A stretch of 54,898 nucleotides of DNA, from positions 1 to 54,898 of the forward strand of contig JACPIH010000010.1 in the NCBI GenBank assembly GCA_016188155.1, read 5' to 3'. Below, piece by piece: positions 4,101-54,897 of this stretch (position 1 is its first letter; the number at the start of each line of letters is the position of its first letter). The position numbers and the translations under genes are program-made. Below the pieces are notes generated by a model that saw nothing but the letters and a program-made list of their open reading frames with translations, was not told the DNA's origin and did not search any database. This DNA is from Candidatus Woesearchaeota archaeon (GTDB lineage Archaea; Nanobdellota; Nanobdellia; Woesearchaeales; UBA10216).

Positions 4101-4730
4101 ATGGCTGCTTCAAAGGTAGAAGAAATAATAGGCGTACTGAAAAAACAATACCCAAATGCCAAGTACTACCTCAATTTCTCAAACCCTCTGCAGCTAATGG
4201 TGGCCGCAATACTCTCAGCCCAGTGCAGGGACGAGGTCGTCAATGCTGTAACAGCAAAACTTTTTCAGAGGTACAAAACAGCTGCCGACTTTACAAAGCT
4301 GAAGGAAGACGACATAAAATCAATCACGTTCTTCAACAACAAGGCAAAAAACATCAGGGAATCATGTAAGATTATTATGGACAAATTTAGCAGCAAAGTG
4401 CCCGAAACAATGGAGGAATTAGTGACGCTGCCTGGCATTGGAAGGAAAACAGCCAATGCTATTCTGATAAACGCCTTTGACAAAGTTGCTGGAGTGGTTG
4501 TAGATACCCATGTGATAAGGGTTGCTTACCGGCTTGGGCTTACGAAAAATACAAATCCTGAGAAGATTGAGAAAGACCTGATGGCTGCCGTGCCAAAATC
4601 AGAGTGGAAAAGGATAACCTGGCTTCTGAAGGACCACGGCAGGGCGGTGTGCAGGGCTCCTGTGCCATTTTGCAGCAAGTGCGTTCTGGATAAGGTTTGC
4701 CCGAAGAATGGGGTTACAAAGAAGCTTTAA
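4101..4730 (+). CDS. nth: Endonuclease III (DNA glycosylase/AP lyase)
   Basis: 209 residues, normal length. The helix-hairpin-helix LPGIGRKTANAI carries the catalytic Lys116, and VDTHVIR carries Asp135. The C-terminal four-Cys [4Fe-4S] loop is present (C-x6-C-x2-C-x5-C in CRAPVPFCSKCVLDKVCP). It removes oxidised pyrimidines in base excision repair. Start ATG at 4101 with ATTAATTAAG about 28 bp upstream. The gene is followed directly by a strong hairpin block and is convergent with the FNR-like gene. Confidence 0.95.
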   Translation: MAASKVEEIIGVLKKQYPNAKYYLNFSNPLQLMVAAILSAQCRDEVVNAVTAKLFQRYKTAADFTKLKEDDIKSITFFNNKAKNIRESCKIIMDKFSSKVPETMEELVTLPGIGRKTANAILINAFDKVAGVVVDTHVIRVAYRLGLTKNTNPEKIEKDLMAAVPKSEWKRITWLLKDHGRAVCRAPVPFCSKCVLDKVCPKNGVTKKL

Positions 4731-4740
4731 CGTTTTTTGA

Positions 4741-4803
4741 TAAACCCCAAGTCGACATCTGTCGACTAGGCCCAGTCAAGCCTCGCTTGACTTGGGCTTT
4801 TTG
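4741..4803 (+). terminator. Two-hairpin (Y-shaped) 3' element and probable terminator after nth
   Basis: Starting 10 bp after the nth stop. Hairpin 1 is AGTCGAC (4750-4756), loop ATCT, GTCGACT (4761-4767). Hairpin 2 is GTCAAGC (4775-4781), loop CTC, GCTTGAC (4785-4791), extended by GCCCA/TGGGC around one bulged T and followed by a T run (4798-4802). A competing outer helix CCCAAG (4746-4751) with CTTGGG (4791-4796) would enclose both. The sequence aligns with the minus-strand element at 54385-54448, including the flank TAAACC and AAGTCGA, while stem 2 differs in both arms. It lies between convergent genes. Confidence 0.7.
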
Positions 4804-4814
4804 TTAAAAAGGTT

Positions 4815-5537
4815 TTACCACTGTTCTTTATGGATATTCTCCTTCTTGAAGCCGAGCTGCTCCAGCATCTTAACTGTGTCTGTAACCATTATCGGAGGGC
4901 CGCAGATGTAGAACTGAGCGTCCTTGCTTATTTCTGCAGCGTGCTTTGGAAAAGTTTCAGTAACCCTGCCTTTCTCCCATTGCCAGCTTTCGTTGTGGTT
5001 ACTGGTTGACACAACAAGCTGCAGATTGCTGTTTTTTTCGTAACTAAGAAGCTCTTCCTTGAACAGAAACAGCTTTGGCTCGCCAACGCTGTAAAAAAGC
5101 TGCAGCTGATGATCGTAGCCCTCCGAATAAAGTGAGCGCAGCATACTCATGAGAGGGGCAATGCCAGTGCCTCCTGCTATAAAAACAGTGCCTGGGAGGA
5201 CTGGCTGCTTAAGCTGAAATACGCCGTAAGGCCCTGTCACAACAACCTCATCACCGATGTTTTTCTGGAACAGCTTCGGGGACAGGGCGCCTGCAGGGTA
5301 GCTGACTATGCAAAGCTCCAGAAGGTCGCTTTGGGAAGGAGAGGATGCTATAGAGTAAGCTTTTGCTATTTTCCTGCCGTTGGCGTCAGCAAGGCCTGGA
5401 AGAGAGACCATTACAAACTGGCCCGGAACAAACGAAAAGCCGCTGCCTTCAGGAAGCGTGAGCCCAAAAACCCTGAGGTTTTCAGAATATGCATGAATGT
5501 CTGCTATTTTTGTTACAACTTCCTTAATGTTCAGCAT
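4815..5537 (-). CDS. FAD/NAD(P)-binding oxidoreductase, ferredoxin-NADP reductase-like
   Basis: 240 residues. The FAD domain has the AYSIASSP motif, the NAD(P) domain has IAGGTGIAPLMSML, then YICGPPIMV near the C-terminus, ending in the aromatic tail HKEQW typical of the FNR superfamily. No Fe-S Cys cluster is present, so it is a stand-alone flavoprotein and not a hydrogenase gamma subunit. It could pass electrons between NAD(P)H and the ferredoxin encoded 0.8 kb away; this is inference. A minus-strand TATA-like AACTTTTTAATCC (5560-5572) gives ATG at 5537. The palindromic insertion-like element at 5582-5723 lies directly upstream of that promoter. Confidence 0.88.
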   Translation of the reverse strand: MLNIKEVVTKIADIHAYSENLRVFGLTLPEGSGFSFVPGQFVMVSLPGLADANGRKIAKAYSIASSPSQSDLLELCIVSYPAGALSPKLFQKNIGDEVVVTGPYGVFQLKQPVLPGTVFIAGGTGIAPLMSMLRSLYSEGYDHQLQLFYSVGEPKLFLFKEELLSYEKNSNLQLVVSTSNHNESWQWEKGRVTETFPKHAAEISKDAQFYICGPPIMVTDTVKMLEQLGFKKENIHKEQW

Positions 5538-6758: not shown

Positions 6759-7604
6759 ATGAAAAGATTGTCAGAAATGTTACAACAGGAGATTGAGTTA
6801 GAAATTTTTGATGGCACCTCGCTAAATGAAATATCAAGAACGTATTCGATAGGCAAATCAACATTATATTACCACTATAAGAAGTTAAAGGGGAAGAAAA
6901 CAAAACCTATTTTGATAGATTTCAAAAGCGAAAGCGACCTTGGCGAGTTTCTTGGGATTTTTGCAGGGGATGGTTCATTCTACATGGATAAAAAGTCATA
7001 TCATTACTCAGTAAGGATTTTTATTGGAGCTTATGAGAGAGAATATGCTGATTATTTGATAGAAAGGTTTAATGCATGGTTCAACAAGCAACCTCGCATT
7101 TATAAAAGGGATTTTAATGGAAAACCATCCGTAATCATTATTGAATATTACTCAAAAGATCTGTACGCTTTATTAAAGGGGCATCTTTCTTGGAAAGGGA
7201 AAAAAAGCTATACGGTTGGGCTGAAAAAATTTGGTCTTGCCAATAAAGGATTCAACTTAGGATTTTTGAGAGGGTTATTTGATACTGACGGCTCGATATA
7301 CCGTCCTAAGAGACGAGTTTCTTTAGCGTCAGTCTCAAAGGTATTAATTGAGCAAGCTAATCAGATTTTGATACAAAATTGTGGATTGCGACCAAAAGTG
7401 TTTATTTATAAAAAAGAAGGTTGTGCTGATTTATACACCTTGACATTACATGGCACAAACGCAAAAAGATTTATAGAACTAGTAAAACCTGGCAACCCTA
7501 ACAAGCGGCAGTGGTCCAGTCTGGTTAAGACGGGAGCTTCCCAACCAGAGGAAGGAGCTCTAAACCCGGGTTCAAATCTCGGCTGCCGCACTTTTAATTC
7601 ATAA
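6759..7604 (+). CDS. LAGLIDADG homing endonuclease, reading into tRNA-Gly
   Basis: 281 residues with two LAGLIDADG helices, LGEFLGIFAGDGSFY and NLGFLRGLFDTDGSIY, about 110 residues apart, so it should act as a monomer. An N-terminal helix-turn-helix-like segment (NEISRTYSIGKSTLYYHY) precedes them. The homing fold seems to end near VKPGNPNK; the last ~33 residues are a translation of the tRNA gene at 7505-7590, with the stop after it. I chose ATG 6759 because AGAGGT lies 8 bp upstream; an in-frame TTG exists at 6732. No host ORF or intron surrounds it, so it is free-standing. AT-richer codon use than its neighbours suggests transfer. Confidence 0.9.
   Translation: MKRLSEMLQQEIELEIFDGTSLNEISRTYSIGKSTLYYHYKKLKGKKTKPILIDFKSESDLGEFLGIFAGDGSFYMDKKSYHYSVRIFIGAYEREYADYLIERFNAWFNKQPRIYKRDFNGKPSVIIIEYYSKDLYALLKGHLSWKGKKSYTVGLKKFGLANKGFNLGFLRGLFDTDGSIYRPKRRVSLASVSKVLIEQANQILIQNCGLRPKVFIYKKEGCADLYTLTLHGTNAKRFIELVKPGNPNKRQWSSLVKTGASQPEEGALNPGSNLGCRTFNS
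7505..7590 (+). tRNA. tRNA-Gly(CCC) with a 12-nt intron
   Basis: Acceptor GCGGCAG (7505-7511) pairs with CTGCCGC (7583-7589), discriminator A7590. D-stem GTC/GAC, T-stem CCGGG/CTCGG with loop TTCAAAT. Anticodon stem GGAGC (7533-7537) pairs with GCTCT (7557-7561). The 19-nt loop resolves to TTCCCAA, anticodon CCC at 7540-7542, after removal of a 12-nt intron between positions 37 and 38. CCA is not encoded. A TATA-like TTTATA (about 7470-7475), inside the LAGLIDADG coding region, is 30 bp upstream and could drive it. A class II tRNA reading gives no valid anticodon stem. Confidence 0.88.
7544..7555 (+). other. tRNA-Gly intron (bulge-helix-loop)
   Basis: TTCC (7538-7541) pairs with GGAA (7550-7553), flanked by 3-nt bulges CAA (7542-7544) and GGA (7554-7556). 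Cutting after the second base of each bulge removes 7544-7555 and restores a 7-nt anticodon loop. The distal helix of a full bulge-helix-bulge motif is absent. The processing enzyme is probably the EndA encoded at 41984-42580. Confidence 0.75.
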
Positions 7605-9612: not shown

Positions 9613-9695
9613 CGATATATAAATTTTGTGGAAGCACGTTTAAAGGGTTTTGTCACCGCAACAGACAAAAACCAACCCTTTTTACAAAAGGGTTG
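9613..9695 (+). promoter_or_regulatory. TraB promoter region with 10-bp leader hairpin
   Basis: GATATATAAAT (about 9614-9624) and GTTTAAAG (9638-9645) are TATA-like boxes. A perfect hairpin CAACCCTTTT (9673-9682), loop TAC, AAAAGGGTTG (9686-9695) follows just before ATG 9710. Read on the other strand, the hairpin resembles those at 12296 and 38946 (GATCAACCCTTTT against GATCGACCTTTTT). Confidence 0.5.
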
Positions 9696-9709
9696 ATCCA
9701 AAAACGAAA

Positions 9710-12277: not shown

Positions 12278-12295
12278 AAGGAAAAGTTTTTGATT

Positions 12296-12316
12296 GACCT
12301 TTTTCTTAAAAAGGTC
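12296..12316. repeat. Short palindrome GACCTTTTT-CTT-AAAAAGGTC
   Basis: A 9-bp perfect stem with a 3-nt loop immediately before the Hef ATG at 12317 and 18 bp after the previous stop. Its left flank TTTTTGATTGACC matches TTTTTGATCGACC at 38938 and TGATTGACC at 54382. It could terminate the upstream operon or occlude the Hef start. Confidence 0.6.
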
Positions 12317-13867
12317 ATGATAAAAGGATTTACCCCGAGGCTGTACCAGGAAACCATTCTGGCAACGGCAACGACCAAAAACACGCTCGTTGTTTTGCCA
12401 ACGGGGCTGGGAAAGACAAACATATTCCTCATGCTGGCAGCGCACAGGCTCAAGCTTTATCCTGACAGCAAGATACTCCTGATAGGGCCAACAAGGCCCC
12501 TCATTGACCAGTACCTGGAAGTGTTCAGAAAGAATTTTGACATTCCAGAGGGGAAGATGGCAGTGCTTACCGGGATGGTTGCTGCTGAGAAGAGGACGGA
12601 GCTGTGGAACAATGCGACACTGATATTCAGCACGCCACAGGGACTGGAGAATGACCTCTTGGCCGGGAAGATAAGCCTTGAAAACGTCACACTGCTGGGG
12701 TTTGACGAAGCACACAGGGCAGTGAAAGATTACAGCTATGTCTGGATAGCAAAGCAGTACATCAAAACTGCGAGGTTCCCAAGAATACTGGCACTAACCG
12801 CATCACCGGGAAGCGACATGGAAAAGATAACAGAGGTCTGCCAAAACCTGTTCATAGAGGACATAGAGGTAAGGACAGAGTCGGACCAGGACGTGAAGCC
12901 CTATGTTCAGGAGATGGAGATAGACTGGGTAAAGGTCAATCTTCCGCCAGAGCTCTTGGAGATAAAAAAGCTTCTGGAGCTGTCCTTGAGGTCTAAGCTT
13001 GAAGTAGTCAAAAAAATGGGTTTCCTCAGCGGAATAACTGGAGTCACCAAAGGCGACATCCTAAAGCTTCAGGCAAGGCTGCATGCAGGGATGGCAAGCG
13101 ACAAGAAGCATTTCCCGCTGCTCATGGCTGTTTCAGCCCTGTCAGAGGCAATGAAAGTTGGGCATGCGCTGGAGCTAATAGAAACGCAGGGCGTTACGGC
13201 ACTTTACAAATACGTTGAAAGGCTAAAGGAAGACGCAAAGGCAGCAAAGACAAAGGCCGTCAAGAGGCTTTTTACTGACAACAATTTTCTGGCCGCAATT
13301 GAAAAAACATGGCAGCTTTACGAGAAAAAAGCCGAGCATCCAAAGCTGGACGAGCTTAAGAGGATAATAAAAGAGAACGTTGCTGATGTCAAAGGGGCAA
13401 AGGCAATAGTGTTCAACCAGTACAGGGATTCGGCACAGAAACTGCAGCAGGAGCTCAATAAAGTGGAAGGGGTCAGGGCCAGCATCTTCGTGGGGCAGAT
13501 GAAAAAAGGCGATACAGGGCTATCGCAAAAGGAGCAAAAAGAGCTTCTAAAGAGGTTTGCAGAGGGCGAGTTCAACGCCATAATTGCCACTTCAATCGGA
13601 GAGGAAGGTCTTGACATTCCAAAGGTTGACCTTGTCGTGTTCTACGAACCAATACCATCAGCAATAAGGCAGATTCAGCGCAGAGGGAGAACAGGAAGGC
13701 AGGAAAAAGGCAAGGTCATAATACTCGTGACAAGGGACACCAGAGACGAAGCATTCAGGTGGGTTGCCCACCACAGGGAAAAGAGGATGCACAGCATACT
13801 GAAAACACTGAAAAGCAGGCTCAAGCTAACGCCAATAGCACAAAGGCAGCTTGACAAATTTGCATAG
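12317..13867 (+). CDS. hef: Hef-type superfamily 2 helicase (helicase half of Hef)
   Basis: 516 residues, an SF2 helicase related to archaeal Hef and eukaryotic FANCM. Walker A is VLPTGLGKT, Walker B is DEAH (GFDEAHRAVKD), motif III LALTASPG, and motif VI QRRGRTGRQ. The insertion domain between the RecA lobes (about residues 210-330) fits Hef. Full-length Hef carries an ERCC4 nuclease at its C-terminus; here the protein stops after the helicase and the nuclease is the next gene, 11 bp away. The pair should process stalled forks. ATG 12317 was chosen over 12290, which would put the hairpin inside the protein. Confidence 0.93.
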   Translation: MIKGFTPRLYQETILATATTKNTLVVLPTGLGKTNIFLMLAAHRLKLYPDSKILLIGPTRPLIDQYLEVFRKNFDIPEGKMAVLTGMVAAEKRTELWNNATLIFSTPQGLENDLLAGKISLENVTLLGFDEAHRAVKDYSYVWIAKQYIKTARFPRILALTASPGSDMEKITEVCQNLFIEDIEVRTESDQDVKPYVQEMEIDWVKVNLPPELLEIKKLLELSLRSKLEVVKKMGFLSGITGVTKGDILKLQARLHAGMASDKKHFPLLMAVSALSEAMKVGHALELIETQGVTALYKYVERLKEDAKAAKTKAVKRLFTDNNFLAAIEKTWQLYEKKAEHPKLDELKRIIKENVADVKGAKAIVFNQYRDSAQKLQQELNKVEGVRASIFVGQMKKGDTGLSQKEQKELLKRFAEGEFNAIIATSIGEEGLDIPKVDLVVFYEPIPSAIRQIQRRGRTGRQEKGKVIILVTRDTRDEAFRWVAHHREKRMHSILKTLKSRLKLTPIAQRQLDKFA

Positions 13868-14546: not shown

Positions 14547-15368
14547 TTATGCGCGTCTCGCTACTTCAATCCCAGGCTTCATGCTTTTCCAGGCAACCTC
14601 AAATAGGTTCTCTAGCGCGGCAGCGAAGAATGGCGTGTTCACCCAGATGCCCACGTCATAGGTTGGGTGGACGTCCTTGTCGTCCATTACCATGAACATC
14701 ATTTCCTTGCCGTCAATAACGCAGAACCTTCCTTTTGCTTCGGTGTGCCTTACCTCTGCAATGTCGGTGATTGTGTCTACAGCGTGCTTGTTTTCCTTTG
14801 AGATAGGCACTGCGATTCTGATTTTTACCCCCCTCTTCTTGGCCTTTTCCATTGCCATCTTCAGGCCTTCCACCTTTCTGAGGAAGTCCTGGGATGTTGT
14901 CAGTATTGTAACGGTTTTTTCGGCGTTCTTTATCATGAGGTCAAGGTGGTTGTAGAGGTTGTGCCTACCCTTCAGGCTGCCTGAAAGGTCTGCTGGCTCT
15001 ACAAGCTCTATCCCCTGCTGGTGCAGCATCTTGAGCTCATCAACAATCTCAGTGTTTTTGACTTCGTCAAGCCTCTTGAGCCTTTTTTCGGACTCCTCCT
15101 TCATGTGCTTCTTTACCCTTTCAACTACCTCTACTGGCTGCACTGCGAGGTACTTTATCGGCTTGCCAAACTTCATTATGACAAAGCCCTTCTTTTCCAA
15201 ACTCTCTAAAACATCATAACTCCTACTTCTTGGGACATTAGCAATGTCAGAAAGCTCACCGGCTGTTGCGACTCCTCTTGATAGCAACGCCGTCCATATT
15301 TTGACTTCGTAAAGGTTTAGTGAGAAATAGGTCCTGAGTTTACTAAGGAATTCTTCTTTAATAATCAT
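14547..15368 (-). CDS. TrmB-family transcriptional regulator (copy 1)
   Basis: 273 residues. The N-terminal winged helix is LNLYEVKIWTALLSRGVATAGELSDI then PRSRSYDVLESLEKKGFVI. A C-terminal effector-type domain follows with a phospholipase-D-like repeat unit (VTILTTSQDFLRKV, KRGVKIRIAVP). TrmB proteins respond to sugars in other archaea; the ligand here is unknown. ATG 15368 follows GGAGGG by 7 bp. GTAACA-N12-TGTTAC (15404-15427) spans its promoter. It is divergent from the acetyl-CoA synthetase gene, a plausible target. An 81-nt stretch (15183-15263) is 80/81 identical to the second TrmB gene. Confidence 0.9.
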   Translation of the reverse strand: MIIKEEFLSKLRTYFSLNLYEVKIWTALLSRGVATAGELSDIANVPRSRSYDVLESLEKKGFVIMKFGKPIKYLAVQPVEVVERVKKHMKEESEKRLKRLDEVKNTEIVDELKMLHQQGIELVEPADLSGSLKGRHNLYNHLDLMIKNAEKTVTILTTSQDFLRKVEGLKMAMEKAKKRGVKIRIAVPISKENKHAVDTITDIAEVRHTEAKGRFCVIDGKEMMFMVMDDKDVHPTYDVGIWVNTPFFAAALENLFEVAWKSMKPGIEVARRA

Positions 15369-23830: not shown

Positions 23831-26497
23831 CTACTTCCAAATAATCTCCTCTATTATTCGCTTCTTTTTCTCTGCGCTGACACACTTCTTTTCCGGGCAC
23901 GGCTGTGTCGGCTGGGGCTGTGTCATGCAGATGCATAAATCCGTTACACACTCAAAGTTGTGGATGCACGGATCGCCAGCTACTTTCTGCGTCACCGAAG
24001 TTCCGGTGAAGCTGCAATATGCACCAGCTTGCCTTGAGCCAAGTGGTGAGCACTGTTGCGGGCCTTTAAGCTGGAATGTTTGCTTGTTGTCGTTCTCGTT
24101 TGATTCTGTAAAAACGCCTTTGGAAGTGCCTACCTGAAAATTGTCAACGTCAACAACTGCCCAGTAGTTTGCATCTTTGTCTTCAAGCACGCATTGCCCT
24201 CCGCCTAGCGAGCTTACCCGAACTGAGCTCAGCTTTACCTCACCGGGCTTAATCCCTGTTTCAAGTGGTTCAAGCAATTCACCTTTGCACACTTCAGTAT
24301 CTTTTTTCAGTATGGACACCTTGAGCGGGAGGATTTTGTCAGACACAAACCCCCCGCCAACGTACTGTTCAGGCACTGCTATCCTTCCGCCGGTGTTTTT
24401 GACTGCCACTTTGACGTATGAAACCGTGACAGGGAAGATTTCCAACGGCGGCGAGGCTTCTGCTCCTGTTGGCACAAGGTTAGCCAGGCTGGACGCCAGC
24501 ACCTTTAATCCAGCTTTTTCTACCCCATTTTCATCTTTAAACAAGGCTTCGGCTTCGTTGTCGTTTTCCCGGGCCACAACGTAGAACTGCTCAGCGTCCA
24601 CTACGGCAGTTATGAAGAGGTCGCCGGAAAAGCCTTCAGGTATTTTCACAGTCTTCCTTAACACTTCAAGGCTTTCTCCGGAATTTATCGCTTTGCCTTT
24701 GTGCTTAGTTGTTACAGATGAAAAAGTGTCCCCAATAAAAGTCCCTACTGCCGCAGATACCCGCGGCATTACTTCGGAACCGTACTTATCGCCTTCCCTG
24801 AATGACACCGAAGTGCCGAATGTACTGCCGCAGTTGAGGTTGATAACGCCAGCAACAGGGCATTTGCCCCTAACGTCAGGGTGGTTGGTGCTTTTTGTTC
24901 CTGTATTTTTGACTTTGAGGACAACTACAATCTCATCGCCGCCCTTGACGCCGGCAGGGGCTGTCACTTTGAGTTCAGGCACGAGTTTGACGCCTTCTGT
25001 TAGAGGCTGACTTGTTTGGCTTGATTCTGGGGGTTCTTGAGATTTGCTGCACTGGGCTGATTCCAAACACCTGTTTTCGGTTTCACAAGACGACCCTCCC
25101 GTACAACTCTTTGACTGGGGCACTTTGCCAGAGGGACATCCCTGCTCGCCACATCCTCCGCTTGTTTGCCAGTCACCACAAGTGCATCCCTGCGGAAGCT
25201 GCTGTTCGGGCTGTGAAGACGAAGGGCACTTGACTTGGCAGTTGACGGAGCTGTAACATTTACCGTTCGATACGCACTTCCAGCTTGTCGGAGATGCACA
25301 GGGCTCTTTTTGCTCACATTTTGGGGAAGCTGATCCAACCGCTTCTGTTTGGCTTGATTCAGGTTTAACCGCTTCTGTTGATGGTGGAGCACATGACATG
25401 CCGCTGGGACTACAGCCATTCGGGCAGTTCTTTTCTTCAGAATCAACCTCGTTCTTCGCGTTGCAGAAATAATCAGTCAACACCTTCCTCACTGAGGAAC
25501 ACGTGTCACGGGTTGAGTCTGAGCCACGGGTTACTACCCCATCCTTATCAGAACACACAACCACTCCTGCTTGTCCTGTCGCGGTATCCTTTATCGTAAC
25601 TTGAGTATCTGTAGCTGCAGCGGTATCTTTTACAGTAATTCGAGTGTCTGTAGCTGCAGCGGTATCTTTTATCGTAACTGGCATGCCTGACCCGGTGTTA
25701 ACCACTTCTGTCGGTGACGAAGCGGGTTGCGTTGCCTGGCCTGGCTGAGCCTTCTGCACCATCTCACCGTAAAGCGTGCATTGGCCTTCAAGCTCCACTC
25801 TTATGACTTGGCCAATGTAAGACTTGGGAATGTTATTATCTTTCAATGTATTTTCCTTAGGGCTTCTTTCCTTGCCTGTGCGGAGGTAAATCACCATACT
25901 TTTGAGGTCGCAGCCGTAGTCTGCAAATATTTCGTTGAGCGGCCTTCCTGTCAATGCGGAAGTTACACCAATATGAGCGCCGGAAGTTATGAAAAGTGGT
26001 GGCTGCTGATACTGTTCATTGCTTTGAATGAGATAACACGTGTCTGAGTAACCAGGATATTTTCCAATCCAGAACAGCCTTTTTTTAAGTTTAACATCAA
26101 ATCGCATTGCTCTTCCCAGCATAGACTCTGGAATTTTTTCAGACATATAGGATGAGCCTTCTAATGTGCCAATGTTGTCAAAACCGCGGCAGTCAGAGCT
26201 TTCGGCAATTTGGCTTCCTGTTTTCCCTATCATGCCCGGCGTTACTGCAACGTAGTTGTCTCCCTCATAGAGAATTATTTTGCCCATTAATGGAACGATT
26301 GACGTTTTCTGTATCGTTAGTGCTGTGTCTGTGAGCGCTTGAGACGTATCTTTCAGCGTAATTGGCGTGCTCGTGCCTGCAGAGTCCTCAGGTATTTGTA
26401 TTTGATATCCAGTCACGGCAGGGCCCGGGAACAATCCGATGTTGTCAGAAAGCCATAATGCCCCGAAGAGGGCCACCAGCGCCACAGCTACTTTCAC
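23831..26497 (-). CDS. Large Cys-rich secreted protein with tandem repeats
   Basis: 888 residues. An uncleaved-looking N-terminal hydrophobic segment (VAVALVALFGALWLSDNIG) precedes a secreted body. It contains a region with repeats of TIKDTAAATDT (about residues 272-310), then a Cys-rich Pro/Ser linker region with roughly 20 Cys (about 320-510), then CARDB-like beta domains (ELKVTAPAGVKGGDEIVVVLKVKNTGT), and a final Cys-rich EGF-like tail. The GTG start at 26497 is the first in frame before the hydrophobic segment. It could be an adhesin. It lies between the two paralogous lipoproteins, convergent with the first and divergent from the second. Confidence 0.75.
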   Translation of the reverse strand: MKVAVALVALFGALWLSDNIGLFPGPAVTGYQIQIPEDSAGTSTPITLKDTSQALTDTALTIQKTSIVPLMGKIILYEGDNYVAVTPGMIGKTGSQIAESSDCRGFDNIGTLEGSSYMSEKIPESMLGRAMRFDVKLKKRLFWIGKYPGYSDTCYLIQSNEQYQQPPLFITSGAHIGVTSALTGRPLNEIFADYGCDLKSMVIYLRTGKERSPKENTLKDNNIPKSYIGQVIRVELEGQCTLYGEMVQKAQPGQATQPASSPTEVVNTGSGMPVTIKDTAAATDTRITVKDTAAATDTQVTIKDTATGQAGVVVCSDKDGVVTRGSDSTRDTCSSVRKVLTDYFCNAKNEVDSEEKNCPNGCSPSGMSCAPPSTEAVKPESSQTEAVGSASPKCEQKEPCASPTSWKCVSNGKCYSSVNCQVKCPSSSQPEQQLPQGCTCGDWQTSGGCGEQGCPSGKVPQSKSCTGGSSCETENRCLESAQCSKSQEPPESSQTSQPLTEGVKLVPELKVTAPAGVKGGDEIVVVLKVKNTGTKSTNHPDVRGKCPVAGVINLNCGSTFGTSVSFREGDKYGSEVMPRVSAAVGTFIGDTFSSVTTKHKGKAINSGESLEVLRKTVKIPEGFSGDLFITAVVDAEQFYVVARENDNEAEALFKDENGVEKAGLKVLASSLANLVPTGAEASPPLEIFPVTVSYVKVAVKNTGGRIAVPEQYVGGGFVSDKILPLKVSILKKDTEVCKGELLEPLETGIKPGEVKLSSVRVSSLGGGQCVLEDKDANYWAVVDVDNFQVGTSKGVFTESNENDNKQTFQLKGPQQCSPLGSRQAGAYCSFTGTSVTQKVAGDPCIHNFECVTDLCICMTQPQPTQPCPEKKCVSAEKKKRIIEEIIWK
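25581..25697. repeat. Tandem 39-bp repeat inside the large secreted protein gene
   Basis: Three units start at 25581, 25620 and 25659 (period 39 bp, 13 residues). Units one and two share GTCTGTAGCTGCAG-like ends and all start GCGGTATC; the third diverges after about 20 bp. In protein they read TIKDTAAATDT(R/Q). A related degenerate unit occurs near the N-terminus (TLKDTSQALTDTALT). Such repeats can change copy number by slippage. Confidence 0.75.
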
Positions 26498-32644: not shown

Positions 32645-33493
32645 CTATCGCGTGCAATTGCAGTTTACCCTTCCGCAGGGTTTTGGTTCTGTATTCCCCT
32701 GCAGAAGCCGAACGACCTTCTCCGTGAGTTCCTTCACTTCCAGTTCCATGTAGGGGTTTAGCACCACAGTCTTGCTGCTGTTGTGGTCAAGGTACCTTAC
32801 AACAGCTTTTGTAACTGCGGTATTGAACTTTTCCTGCAGAAGCATCATATAAGCCGCAGCCTGCACCCTATGGGAGGGCCAGACTCCATCAGAGGGCATC
32901 TTTCCTGTTTTTAGCTCTATCGGTAGGATAGTGTTTGGGTGTATTTCAACCCTGTCAACAGTGCCTTTTAGCCTCAACATTGGCGATTTCACTTTCAGCT
33001 CCGAAAGTATTTTTGGCGAGAGCATCTGCCAGAGCTCTTTGCCAAACACGCTGCTCTTTGCGGCAAAGCTGTAAACATTTTCAGCCCTTTCGCCGGCTTC
33101 GGCGGCAGCTATCGGCTGGAGTTTTGCAACAACCTCCTCCGGGGCTATATCAAACAGAGCCAGGGAATTGCTGTGGCTAGCAACAACGTGCCGCAGAAGG
33201 TTTTGGTATGATTTTGAATATGCCTCCAATATTATTTCCCGTGAGGTTTCTGGCAGGTGAACCACAAGGGCTTCTTCGTATTTGTTGGTGAGGTCGTAGA
33301 ACTTGTGCCTTATGCCCCCAAGCACCATTGCGGGATTAAGTTTTTCCTCATAGCCGAGAACCTTCTGCTGAAACAGGAGCCTGGGGCAATACATGTATGA
33401 TGTAAGGTCGGTTACTGAAATCATAGCACTGGCTGCGGCGGCATCGGTTTCCACGGTAGCTACAGATTCTTCCTTTTTTCCCAGTCCTTCCAT
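32645..33493 (-). CDS. Cas4-like PD-(D/E)XK nuclease with Fe-S Cys cluster
   Basis: 282 residues. RecB-family nuclease landmarks are GGIRHKFYD (His), LKGTVDRVEI (Asp), PIELKTGK (Glu, Lys), and HRVQAAAYMMLL (QxxxY). One Cys near the N-terminus (SYMYCPRLLF) and three at the end (CGRVNCNC) would bind a [4Fe-4S] cluster as in Cas4 and AddB. There is no CRISPR array or other cas gene in the window, so a repair or end-processing role is more likely. ATG 33493 was chosen; the longer frame to 33832 runs through a palindrome. TATA-like ATATTTAAA is at 33528-33536. Confidence 0.85.
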   Translation of the reverse strand: MEGLGKKEESVATVETDAAAASAMISVTDLTSYMYCPRLLFQQKVLGYEEKLNPAMVLGGIRHKFYDLTNKYEEALVVHLPETSREIILEAYSKSYQNLLRHVVASHSNSLALFDIAPEEVVAKLQPIAAAEAGERAENVYSFAAKSSVFGKELWQMLSPKILSELKVKSPMLRLKGTVDRVEIHPNTILPIELKTGKMPSDGVWPSHRVQAAAYMMLLQEKFNTAVTKAVVRYLDHNSSKTVVLNPYMELEVKELTEKVVRLLQGNTEPKPCGRVNCNCTR

Positions 33494-33527
33494 TTTTGCA
33501 GTCAGGGGCAAGAAATCGTTGTTTGTG

Positions 33528-33565
33528 TTTAAATATGTTGCCCGGGCATGTCCAGTGTCCAGTGA
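33528..33565 (-). promoter_or_regulatory. Promoter module of the Cas4-like gene (second ACTGGAC module)
   Basis: On the minus strand TCACTGGACACTGGACA (33565-33549), then TGCCCGGG (33548-33541), then the TATA box ATATTTAAA (33536-33528). The order and spacing match the module at 6529-6568. The TATA box is about 38 bp before ATG 33493. Confidence 0.65.
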
Positions 33566-33569
33566 AACC

Positions 33570-33636
33570 TTCTTTGGCAAGCACAAGCCGACAGTAGTCG
33601 GCTGTGCAGTCCTGCCAAAGCAGGACTTGCAAAGAA
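33570..33636. repeat. Y-shaped palindromic element between Cas4-like and tyrS genes
   Basis: Outer helix TTCTTTG (33570-33576) with CAAAGAA (33630-33636), extended by GCAA/TTG pairs around one bulge. Inside, hairpin 1 is AGCCGAC (33586-33592), loop AGTA, GTCGGCT (33597-33603), lengthened by CAC/GTG around a bulged A. Hairpin 2 is AGTCCTGC (33608-33615), loop CAAA, GCAGGACT (33620-33627). It sits 4 bp from the promoter module of the Cas4-like gene and about 80 bp from the tyrS TATA box. Confidence 0.7.
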
Positions 33637-33712
33637 GCTTTACCAAGAAATCCACAATGTCAGAACGCACTTCTTGCGGAATTTTCGGAATTGTTGCGGC
33701 AAAAACAAAAAG

Positions 33713-33721
33713 ATTTATATC
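33713..33721 (+). promoter_or_regulatory. TATA box of tyrS
   Basis: ATTTATATC is centred 27 bp before ATG 33744, predicting a leaderless mRNA. Confidence 0.6.
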
Positions 33722-33743
33722 GTTTGGTTCGGCAGCGGCTACC

Positions 33744-34820
33744 ATGGATATTGAGGAAAGGCTGTCTTTAATTAAAGAAGTTGGTGAGGAAATAATCACT
33801 GTTGATGAGCTTAGGCACCTTCTTGAGACCAAGCCTCATCCGGTGGCTTATGATGGCTTCGAGCCCAGTGGGGAGATGCACATAGCACAGGGAATTCTTC
33901 GTTCTATTAATGTCAACAAGATGATTAAGGCAGGTGTGAGTTTCAAGATGCTTGTTGCCGACTGGTTTGCCTGGATGAACAACAAGCTTGGCGGCGACCT
34001 GGAGAAAATCAGAGTAACTGGCGAGTATTTCATCGAAATGTGGAAAGCCTGCGGCATGGACATTGATGGTGTAGAGTTCATCTGGTCAAAAGATTTGGTG
34101 AGGCAGGAAGGCCACTGGAAAACAACAATTGACATAGCAAGGGCATCTACTGTTCAAAGGATTTTGAGAACAAGCCAGATTATGGGGCGAAAGAGCACAG
34201 AAACGTTAAGCGCTGCACAGGTTATTTACCCTTGTATGCAGGCTGCGGATATTTTTCACTTGAAATGCGATATTTGCCAGCTTGGCATGGACCAGCGCAA
34301 GGTCAACATCCTTGCGAGGGAGGTGGGGCCAAAGCTCGGCTTCTGGAAGCCTGTTATAGTAAGCCACCATATGATACTCGGCTTATTGGAACCAAAAACA
34401 GCCTATACAGACACTGACGATCGTTTGCTTGATTTAAAAATGTCAAAGTCCAAGCCAGATTCGGCAATTTTCATGACAGACAGCGAAGCGGATGTCAAGC
34501 GAAAGATAAGCAAGGCATACTGCCCTGAGAAAAAAGTTGAGGAAAACCCAATCCTTGAATACTGCAAATATATCATTTTTGAAAAGTTTGATGTGGTGGA
34601 AATAAAGAGGCCTGAGAAGTTTGGCGGAGACTTGAGTGTTGAGAGCTACAGTGACTTGGAGAAGTCGTATGTTGCCGGGAAAATTCACCCGGCAGACTTG
34701 AAAGCGGCTGTTGCCGAGAAGCTGAACGAGCTGATTGAGCCTGTCAGGAAGCATTTTGCTACCAACGCGAAAGCAAAGAGGCTTCTTGAGCAAGTAAGGA
34801 GCTTTGAAGTGACGAGATAA
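33744..34820 (+). CDS. tyrS: Tyrosyl-tRNA synthetase, archaeal type
   Basis: 358 residues, class I synthetase of the archaeal/eukaryal TyrRS type. The HIGH-type motif is MHIAQG (about residue 47) and the KMSKS motif is KMSKSKPDSAIF (about residue 232). VAYDGFEPSGEMH and MQAADIFHLKCDICQLGMDQRKVN are typical TyrRS active-site segments. ATG 33744 is the only start that places the TATA box upstream; the frame open from 33393 runs through the palindrome and promoter of the divergent gene. Confidence 0.95.
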   Translation: MDIEERLSLIKEVGEEIITVDELRHLLETKPHPVAYDGFEPSGEMHIAQGILRSINVNKMIKAGVSFKMLVADWFAWMNNKLGGDLEKIRVTGEYFIEMWKACGMDIDGVEFIWSKDLVRQEGHWKTTIDIARASTVQRILRTSQIMGRKSTETLSAAQVIYPCMQAADIFHLKCDICQLGMDQRKVNILAREVGPKLGFWKPVIVSHHMILGLLEPKTAYTDTDDRLLDLKMSKSKPDSAIFMTDSEADVKRKISKAYCPEKKVEENPILEYCKYIIFEKFDVVEIKRPEKFGGDLSVESYSDLEKSYVAGKIHPADLKAAVAEKLNELIEPVRKHFATNAKAKRLLEQVRSFEVTR

Positions 34821-38925: not shown

Positions 38926-39044
38926 TGAGTTTCGAGTTTTTGATCGACCTTTTTAGTAAAAAGGTCGCGTGCTCTCCAGTTACTCCCGTTCTTCATAGCC
39001 CGCTTTCGCGAAACTCAGAGGGTGTTCACGCGATCATTGCACGC
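38926..39044. terminator. Palindromic block between pan and trm5 (convergent)
   Basis: Outer TGAGTTTCG (38926-38934) with CGAAACTCA (39009-39017) encloses the T-rich hairpin GACCTTTTT (38946-38954), loop AGT, AAAAAGGTC (38958-38966). Competing long-range pairs are TGATCG (38941-38946) with CGATCA (39031-39036), and CGCGTG (38966-38971) with CACGCG (39027-39032). A second internal arm is not obvious. It is placed to end both convergent transcripts, and its left part matches the palindromes at 12296 and 54381. Confidence 0.55.
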
Positions 39045-44989: not shown

Positions 44990-45790
44990 TCAAAAAACCT
45001 GCTTGAGCGTTGGCCAGGCTGCCTCAAACATCTTCTCAAAGGTTGAGGCGAAGAACTTAGACCTTACCCAGATGCCAACATCAGAAGCAGGGCTTGTGAG
45101 CTCATCATCAAGAGGCATAAGCACAACTTCCTTCCCATCAACAACACAAAACCTTGCAGGGGTGTTTGCCTGCCTTAGCTCAACAAGGCCCCCCAGATCT
45201 TCGATCTGGGACCGGACATCAGTTGTAATGTTGGCGGCAATCTTAATTTTTACCCGCTTTTCCTTTGCCTTCTTAAAGGCCGCGCTTAAGGCACTCTTTT
45301 TTCTCAAAATGCCAGATGACGTAGTCATTATTATGATACTCTTCTCAGCATTTTTAATCATCCTGTCAAGGTGATGGTAAAGGTTTTTCCTGCCCCGTAT
45401 ACTACCTGTGAGCTCAAGCGGGTCTATCTCCCTTATACCGCTTTTATAAACACTTTTCAGTTCGTCAATAAGCGGGCTTTGCTCAATCTTACTCAAAAAC
45501 TTATCATGGGTATCAGCATCCTCTATCAATTTCTTCCTGACAGTCTCAATGACGTGGTCAGGCTGCACCGCTATGTACTTTATCGGCTTGCCAATCTTCA
45601 GGATTATAAAGCCCTTCTTTTCCAAACTCTCCAAAACATCATAACTCCTACTTCTTGGGACATTAGCAATGTCAGAAAGCTCACCGGCAGCAGCAATCCC
45701 TTTGGACAGCAACGCAAGCCAAAGCTTGGATTCGTAGCTGTTCAATCCAATATCTTTCAGTTGGTTGATTATTTCGTTCTGCATCAACAT
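44990..45790 (-). CDS. TrmB-family transcriptional regulator (copy 2)
   Basis: 266 residues, paralogue of the regulator at 14547-15368. The winged helix is LNSYESKLWLALLSKGIAAAGELSDI and PRSRSYDVLESLEKKGFII. The effector domain has SIIIMTTSSGILRKKSALS and VKIKIAANI. It contains 81 nt (45608-45688) 80/81 identical to copy 1, in the DNA-contacting helix region, while the rest is far more diverged. ATG 45790 is preceded by TTTAAATATA (about 45811-45820), giving a leaderless start. A hairpin CCCAGATC-TTC-GATCTGGG in its coding region (about 45191-45210) is also seen. Confidence 0.9.
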   Translation of the reverse strand: MLMQNEIINQLKDIGLNSYESKLWLALLSKGIAAAGELSDIANVPRSRSYDVLESLEKKGFIILKIGKPIKYIAVQPDHVIETVRKKLIEDADTHDKFLSKIEQSPLIDELKSVYKSGIREIDPLELTGSIRGRKNLYHHLDRMIKNAEKSIIIMTTSSGILRKKSALSAAFKKAKEKRVKIKIAANITTDVRSQIEDLGGLVELRQANTPARFCVVDGKEVVLMPLDDELTSPASDVGIWVRSKFFASTFEKMFEAAWPTLKQVF

Positions 45791-54354: not shown

Positions 54355-54384
54355 GACCCTTTTCGTTGAAACCGTTTTCTGATT

Positions 54385-54455
54385 GACCTCTCCACGTCGT
54401 CCAATAGACGACGGGACCAGTCGAGCGCATCTCGACTTGGTTTAGCAAAGAGGTC
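54385..54455 (-). repeat. Y-shaped palindromic element between mcm and the RPA-like gene
   Basis: Outer GACCTCT (54385-54391) with AGAGGTC (54449-54455). Inner hairpins are CGTCGTC (54395-54401)-CAATA-GACGACG (54407-54413), with TCC/GGA below a bulged A, and AGTCGAG (54419-54425)-CGCAT-CTCGACT (54431-54437), with CC/GG below a bulged T. The right end includes the mcm stop codon. On the minus strand it reads TAAACC-AAGTCGA, aligning with the element at 4741. The flank TGATTGACCT matches the short palindromes at 12291 and 38941. Confidence 0.7.
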
Positions 54456-54897
54456 ACACTCTGGACAGGAAGCCGTATCTCGGCTCGTAAACGTCGCCTA
54501 CTCTCTTGAGCCTTTCTATTATTTCATCCACTTCTGCCTTGCTTAGGCCTTTTTCAACAGCAATCCTTGCAACGTCCTCTACAGGGATAGTTTTCCCTAG
54601 TTCTTTTTCAAGGTCATCCAGTATTTGCTTTATCAGGAACATCTTCTCTCTTTGCGATGCTGGTATGCCTGTGGCTATCCTGTCTATGTCGATCTGGCCT
54701 GTTTCTTTCTCCCTTCCTACTTCCATCAGGCAGTACATCAACAGCTCGATTGCCCTCTTAGCATCTTCCCTTGTTACCTTGTCTGACAGCCTTACCTTTG
54801 CCGATGCTTCGCTCATCCTGACCAGGGCTTCAAGCTGCCTTGCTGATATTGGTATTGCCCTCGCCGCCCTTTCGTCGCTGACCGCCCTGTTTCTAAG
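54454..54897 (-). CDS. mcm: MCM replicative helicase, C-terminal part
   Basis: About 147 C-terminal residues; the gene runs out of the window at its 5' end. The first visible residues are LRNRAVSDERAARAIPIS and then ARQLEALVRMSEASAKVRLS, the sensor-2 and lid region of the MCM AAA+ domain, followed by a C-terminal winged helix (EDVARIAVEKGLSKAEVDEII, then GDVYEPRYGFLSRV). It is the replicative helicase, loaded by the Orc1 of this window. It ends in a palindromic block and is followed by the RPA-like gene on the same strand. Confidence 0.93.
   Translation of the reverse strand, partial: LRNRAVSDERAARAIPISARQLEALVRMSEASAKVRLSDKVTREDAKRAIELLMYCLMEVGREKETGQIDIDRIATGIPASQREKMFLIKQILDDLEKELGKTIPVEDVARIAVEKGLSKAEVDEIIERLKRVGDVYEPRYGFLSRV

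Follow-up and report, generated by a model that had tools for sequence, protein, structure and literature searches.

At either end of the 54,898-nt stretch of Woesearchaeota DNA analysed here (the window), one behind nth and one behind mcm, lie two hairpin-forming blocks that align with each other on opposite strands. What kind of element leaves similar folded structures behind these two genes? An initial annotation took them to be a structure-conserving pair of two-hairpin elements, selected for their folded form and not just a terminator. I find that they very probably arose as two insertions from a system of mobile, non-autonomous palindromic elements specific to one genus of Woesearchaeota, apparently an undescribed, tiny mobile DNA element with dozens of copies. 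High copy number, genus restriction, compensatory change, presence and absence at homologous sites, exact boundaries, nesting and in-frame gene insertion are all observed for these elements. They insert into gene gaps, into their own kind and, in frame, into essential genes, and they keep their fold while their letters change.

Anatomy of the nth and mcm blocks

The family is built in three nested layers: a frame hairpin of about 33 bp and two classes, I and II, of double-hairpin element (DHE) of about 48 bp. The nth site is a frame with a class I DHE in it, and the mcm site is a frame with a close variant DHE (Table 1). Two hairpins are indeed present in each block, as annotated, and both blocks fold far better than dinucleotide shuffles (z = -6.0 for nth and -4.9 for mcm), but the annotation had missed the outer stem, which turns each block into a three- or four-way junction. 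This stem is TGACCTC/GAGGTCA at mcm and AAACC/GGTTT plus TTTTT/AAAAA at nth. The two DHEs also belong to different subtypes (class I CCC..GGG at nth, TCC..GGA/CC..GG at mcm), so the blocks are no simple duplicates, and what had looked like a conserved pair is better described as two members of a dispersed family. The mcm subtype recurs at L250:4832, L348:2049, L290:15982, L319:5359 and L327:4091.

The blocks align on opposite strands because a double hairpin approximates its own reverse complement, hairpin 2 resembling the reverse complement of hairpin 1 (dyad symmetry). Both frames point to the plus strand, which is sense to nth and antisense to mcm. The annotated position, directly after a stop codon, was roughly right but inexact: the nth stop codon occupies 4728-4730, the frame begins at 4732 and the aligned TAAACC block at 4741, and the TGA stop of mcm (54454-54456, minus strand) lies within the outer stem and doubles as its end.

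Table 1. Frame elements and double-hairpin elements (DHEs) of the window.
Feature	Position	Strand	Description
Frame element, 3' end of nth	4732..4815	+	GTTTTTTGATAAACC ... CTTTTTGTTAAAAAGGTTT; outer stem AAACC/GGTTT, inner stem TTTTT/AAAAA; from sequence, fold, frame family and the bare frame at the G007 site
Class I DHE, 51 bp, inside nth frame	4746..4796	+	Hairpin 1 4746-4770, hairpin 2 4771-4796; R2 match at 4746-4770; missing from the orthologous G007 site
Divergent frame	9669..9707	-	GTTTTTGGATCAACCCTTTTGTAAAAAGGGTTG; frame-model E 2.4e-6
Bare frame	12283..12321	+	GTTTTTGATTGACCTTTTTCTTAAAAAGGTCA; without double hairpin
Class II DHE, core 33584-33629	33582..33631		2-bp duplication CA (33582-33583, 33630-33631), centre TG; inside PD-(D/E)XK/Cas4-like nuclease gene (32645-33745, minus)
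Bare frame	38933..38971	+	GTTTTTGATCGACCTTTTTAGTAAAAAGGTCG; nn = CG, compensated; without double hairpin
Frame element after mcm, antisense to mcm	54373..54456	+	GTTTTCTGATTGACCTC ... TTTAGCAAAGAGGTCA; final three bases are the mcm stop codon (minus strand)
DHE, TCCAC..GGGA/CCAG..TTGG subtype, inside mcm frame	54391..54440	+	Structure-only search

Rfam covariance models hold no family for the hairpin blocks, and their only match in the window above the gathering score is one tRNA (7505-7590, 47.5 bits), which ARAGORN missed and which perhaps has an intron or an unusual arm. The window also contains three tandem 39-nt repeats (25576-25692) within a long minus-strand reading frame, and a 218-nt repeat (15094-15311 and 45519-45736, 80% identity) whose two copies, both in minus-strand reading frames, are likely paralogous genes.

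A family confined to one genus

The initial annotation had proposed a covariance-model search of the genome and its relatives. Run with one model for the frame (R1) and one for the hairpin (R2), it returned far more than two copies: both models match all eight genomes of the genus, R2 with 12-113 matches each (113 in G001, 108 in G007, 84 in G004, 77 in G000 and 13 in G002). G000 is the organism's own genome, 1.075 Mb long and containing the window; there the hairpin pattern AAGTCGAN{3,10}TCGACT occurs 17 times, against 0 in the reversed control, and the worry that the two blocks might have no further copies in the genome falls away. Among 288 genomes of the order, R2 matches only two outside the genus, weakly and once or twice each. 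Within the family but in a different genus, one genome has 2 weak R2 matches, and R1 and R2 matches are few elsewhere in the order.

Frame hairpins have the consensus GTTTTTTGATnnACCTTTTT..AAAAAGGTn'n'. The left-half outer-stem pattern TTTTTGATNNACC is found 30 times in G000 and 0 times when read backwards, and the frame model gives 87 matches there at E<=1, some of them opposite-strand matches of the same copies. The exact bare-frame pattern also matches Oscillospiraceae/Clostridia MAGs, Methanosarcinales, Altiarchaeota, Micrarchaeota and Aenigmatarchaeota (L049-L127); these may be chance matches or terminators.

In 2.2 Mb of DNA taken from four genomes of the genus, a structure-only search, using double-hairpin geometry and Watson-Crick pairs with no sequence requirement, recovered 125 DHEs, against 0 in first-order shuffles. 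The DHEs run from 44 to 52 bp in length, clustering at 48 bp (57 copies) and 51 bp (25 copies), and they fall into two classes. Class I has the consensus CNCA(A)RTCG..CGAYTGN'G followed by CMCARTCG..CGAYTTGM'G, with one bulged base per hairpin, and obeys the scheme L-CAA..TG-rc(L)rc(R)-CA..TTG-R (L = CN, R = NG) perfectly in 60 of 64 copies; in 60/64 the centre is the reverse complement of the flank. Class II follows T-CAA..TG-rc(T)-CA..TTG-T, where T is CG, CA or TG, and 43 of the 47 copies are perfect with these three. Here the centre is complementary to the left flank in 45/47, as compared with 16 on average, and 28 at most, in 10,000 permutations. Because T differs among copies of the same core type, it is not simply a fixed property of each sublineage.

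Are the matched differences between the arms of the two blocks true covariation? They are compensated, as annotated, and the signal extends across the family far above control. In 33 aligned single hairpins, 99.7% of cells are paired and 39 cells are double-sided (shuffled mean 11, with 0 of 500 shuffles reaching 39), and one unpaired A is always retained. In 20 aligned bare frames, 24 columns are invariant and the two variable stem positions (outer pairs) covary in all 20. This covariation could stem from selection on the ability to fold or, partly, from quasipalindrome correction.

Empty sites, nesting and copies inside genes

By the initial annotation's own standard, relatives without any hairpin at the same place count against it, and most relatives have no element at nth and mcm. 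At nth, the full element is present in G000 and a bare frame in G007, where the nn change is compensated (AA/TT against GA/TC); G005, G001 and G002 have no element, the convergent gene almost adjoining nth, and G004 and G006 have other sequence. At mcm, G000 and G007 carry different double hairpins, G001 has a bare frame, and G003, G006, G002 and G005 have no element. Because the element varies or is missing among relatives, a conserved terminator or riboregulator at these two loci is unlikely. The claim of selection on a folded form thus survives as a statement about a multi-copy, covarying family that is not just a terminator, but finds no support as one about a structure conserved at nth and mcm. 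An assembly artefact is unlikely, since the assemblies are independent and come from different studies.

Along roughly 343 kb of aligned DNA of G000 and G007 (mean 85% identity in the stretches compared), 12 of the element sites of G000 that could be mapped have an element nearby in G007 and 19 do not, and the alignments contain clean insertions of 48, 48, 48 and 51 bp. I removed the element from its flanks and compared the result systematically with homologous sites, some of which, especially the nested ones, are paralogous copies of the host hairpin and not orthologous loci. With that qualification, 19 of 24 class I empty sites lose exactly four further flank bases (net -4, no duplication), and 14 of 23 class II empty sites lose exactly one of the two copies of T (net -2, a 2-bp duplication). 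Clear non-nested cases are L335:6748 and L327:5673 for class II and L252:4146 and L256:11988 for class I. The class II element of the window has an empty paralogous site in L248 with a single CA. L303:17818 was discarded as a case of 2-bp duplication, which is only apparent there (the empty site lies in a TG run, net 0).

The layers also insert into one another. Class I DHEs sit inside the frame at ACC^TTTTT at L281:2867 and L338:3287, in each case with another frame copy (L279 and L214, respectively) that is bare; the nth block has the same architecture. Class II DHEs occur within class I hairpins, often at GTC^G. Taken together, relatives without the element, clean empty sites, nesting and in-frame copies in genes indicate a mobile DNA element. 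No within-species insertion was caught among the genomes compared, which are about 85% identical or less, and the dispersed copies may have spread via gene conversion or recombination. Hairpin-in-hairpin nesting reaches several levels within one intergenic region at L262:15349, L263:3492, L357:106 and L349:8304.

Inside predicted genes lie 36 of the 125 DHEs, as judged from the gene calls of a home-made script whose individual borders may be off. Their length is divisible by three in 32 of 36 cases, whereas among intergenic DHEs this holds for 50 of 82 (Fisher p = 0.002). Host genes encode AspRS, an IleRS-like synthetase, D-aminoacyl-tRNA deacylase, a GatA-type amidase, an Elp3-like radical SAM protein and a Toprim (DnaG-like) protein; for the AspRS and deacylase copies, alignments with element-free relatives are independent of the gene calls. 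In G007, two near-identical double hairpins (L275:9673-9721 and L277:8757-8805) split stretches resembling the 3' half of a tRNA in the T-arm (GGGTTCAAAT ... CCCGGCGGGCTCG), which suggests tRNA introns carrying the element; ARAGORN calls no tRNA at either place.

How the elements may move

Could the blocks instead be functional RNA at gene ends, such as an intrinsic terminator, an attenuator or a 3'-end protection element? The window copies at 4732, 12283 and 38933 begin no more than about 20 nt from a same-strand stop codon, TTTTT follows the second nth hairpin, and the RNA folding energies of both blocks are strong. However, frames in tandem gene gaps are antisense 41 times and sense 23 times, divergent genes flank 27 of the 106 intergenic frames, and the nearest gene boundary is a start about as often as an end (55:51). 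These numbers, together with the 36 copies within genes, the relatives lacking the element at nth and mcm and the restriction to one genus, make a functional RNA very improbable. An intrinsic terminator in particular was rejected on the lack of a consistent gene-sense orientation downstream of stops and on the presence and absence in relatives.

If the elements are mobile, then what moves them? In IS200/IS605 elements, a guide pairs with the cleavage site, and the pairing of centre and flank here (45/47 in class II, 60/64 in class I) could be a formal analogue; the Y1 transposase TnpA (PF01797), however, is missing in six of the eight genomes. The same absence bears on the idea that these are REP/REPIN-type elements moved by a RAYT (Y1 HUH) transposase acting on bulged single-stranded hairpins. 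REP, BIME and REPIN sequences (PMC2817692, PMC3116915) have much the same look, being short bulged palindromes in inverted pairs, at high copy number, scattered in mostly extragenic DNA of one lineage, and the resemblance to guide pairing adds to the case. Yet both features of REP/REPIN-RAYT membership that were tested fail: a cognate PF01797 protein is present only in G004 and G002, which have 84 and 13 hairpin matches, and absent from G001, G007 and G000 with 113, 108 and 77; and in the flank tables by subtype, neither GTAG nor CGTC appears as a tag at the foot of the hairpin. The 2-bp duplication and in-frame gene insertions are likewise foreign to REP, and I consider this explanation unlikely. 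Movement via an RNA copy by reverse transcription, as proposed for the double-hairpin elements of Allomyces mitochondria, is less likely still. The insertion of class I without target duplication invites the same argument as in Allomyces, whose copies reportedly have no target duplications (PMC2800124), but class II duplicates 2 bp, and a PF00078 (RVT_1) protein occurs only in G006, G002 and G003, and not in G000, G001, G004, G005 and G007, the genomes with most copies. Three of the four genomes richest in elements, G000, G001 and G007, have neither a Y1 transposase nor a reverse transcriptase, neither distribution tracks element copy number, and the search, which covered these two families, found no mobilising enzyme; no autonomous relative sharing the ends of the elements was noticed. 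A viral carrier was dropped, since the strict class I pattern does not occur in IMG/VR (0 matches).

A further alternative concerns the fold and not the mobility: the covariation may be a by-product of quasipalindrome correction, i.e. template switching between arms, with no selection on the fold. Stems that are nearly perfect (99.7-100% of cells paired) are what arm-to-arm copying would produce, and template switching at insertion is one possible reading of the T-rc(T)-T rule of class II. Nevertheless, the single bulged base of the outer arm survives uncorrected in almost all 125 copies, and the near-invariant TC/GA and CAA/TTG positions imply recognition of sequence. I regard this alternative as rather unlikely, though the least implausible of the four.

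With which known systems can the elements be compared? In the way they work, they come closest to mitochondrial double-hairpin elements, GC clusters of yeast and Rickettsia palindromic elements. Fungal mitochondria, those of Allomyces among them, contain double-hairpin elements (Paquin, Laforest and Lang 2000, as cited by both PMC5910586 and PMC7218506), and sponges have repetitive hairpin elements (PMC2800124). All are short, dispersed, optional between relatives and have no known enzyme; the Allomyces elements share two adjacent hairpins with those described here, which are two adjacent stem-loops forming one optional, mobile unit (125 units, 0 in shuffles), and, like class I, reportedly lack a target duplication. 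The likeness is one of structure, between organelle genomes on the one hand and the chromosome of an archaeon on the other. The archaeal family stands apart in its strict rules for the bulge and for CAA/TTG, in having two classes of insertion and three layers of nesting, and in the 2-bp duplication of class II, to which the element's centre is complementary. Yeast mitochondrial GC clusters (GC42) make AG/ACT duplications (PMC4478555), but these repeats are fixed, whereas here they are CG, CA or TG with a matching centre, and genome and sequence differ. Rickettsia palindromic elements (PMC10969869) are likewise palindromic mini-elements inserted in frame in unrelated genes, but they are bacterial and about 150 bp long, unlike the 44-52 bp, double, nested and mostly intergenic DHEs. 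Compared with MITEs, the ends here are hairpins, and the duplication is 2 bp in 14 of 23 class II empty sites and none in class I. In the literature searched, in which coverage of subscription papers was thin, I found no paper on such elements in DPANN archaea.

In the mobile element system that I favour, frame hairpins and DHEs would spread through genomes and insert into one another. A trans-acting enzyme would recognise the element as folded single-stranded DNA by its bulged CAA/TTG hairpins, and pairing would be retained because foldable copies alone move; the 48- or 51-bp length would account for tolerance within genes. The central dinucleotide of class II would either base-pair with the target, as a guide of the IS200/IS605 kind, or be copied from the target at insertion. 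That class II thus chooses or copies its target via its own centre is a tentative proposal, more doubtful than mobility itself, and stems from the dinucleotide between the hairpins being the complement of the duplicated YR target.

The movement of the smallest hairpin elements (mitochondrial double-hairpin elements, GC clusters and Rickettsia palindromic elements) is unexplained, as neither an enzyme nor a target rule has been available. The eight related genomes compared here supply empty homologous sites by the dozen, exact boundaries for two classes of insertion and a rule linking centre and target, in an archaeon whose aminoacyl-tRNA synthetases and other core proteins bear mobile insertions of 16-17 residues. 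If the proposal for class II is true, it would be a minimal (~46-nt) non-coding transposon that specifies its target by base pairing, depends on an as yet uncharacterised archaeal enzyme for its movement and can also build nested hairpin-in-hairpin structures.
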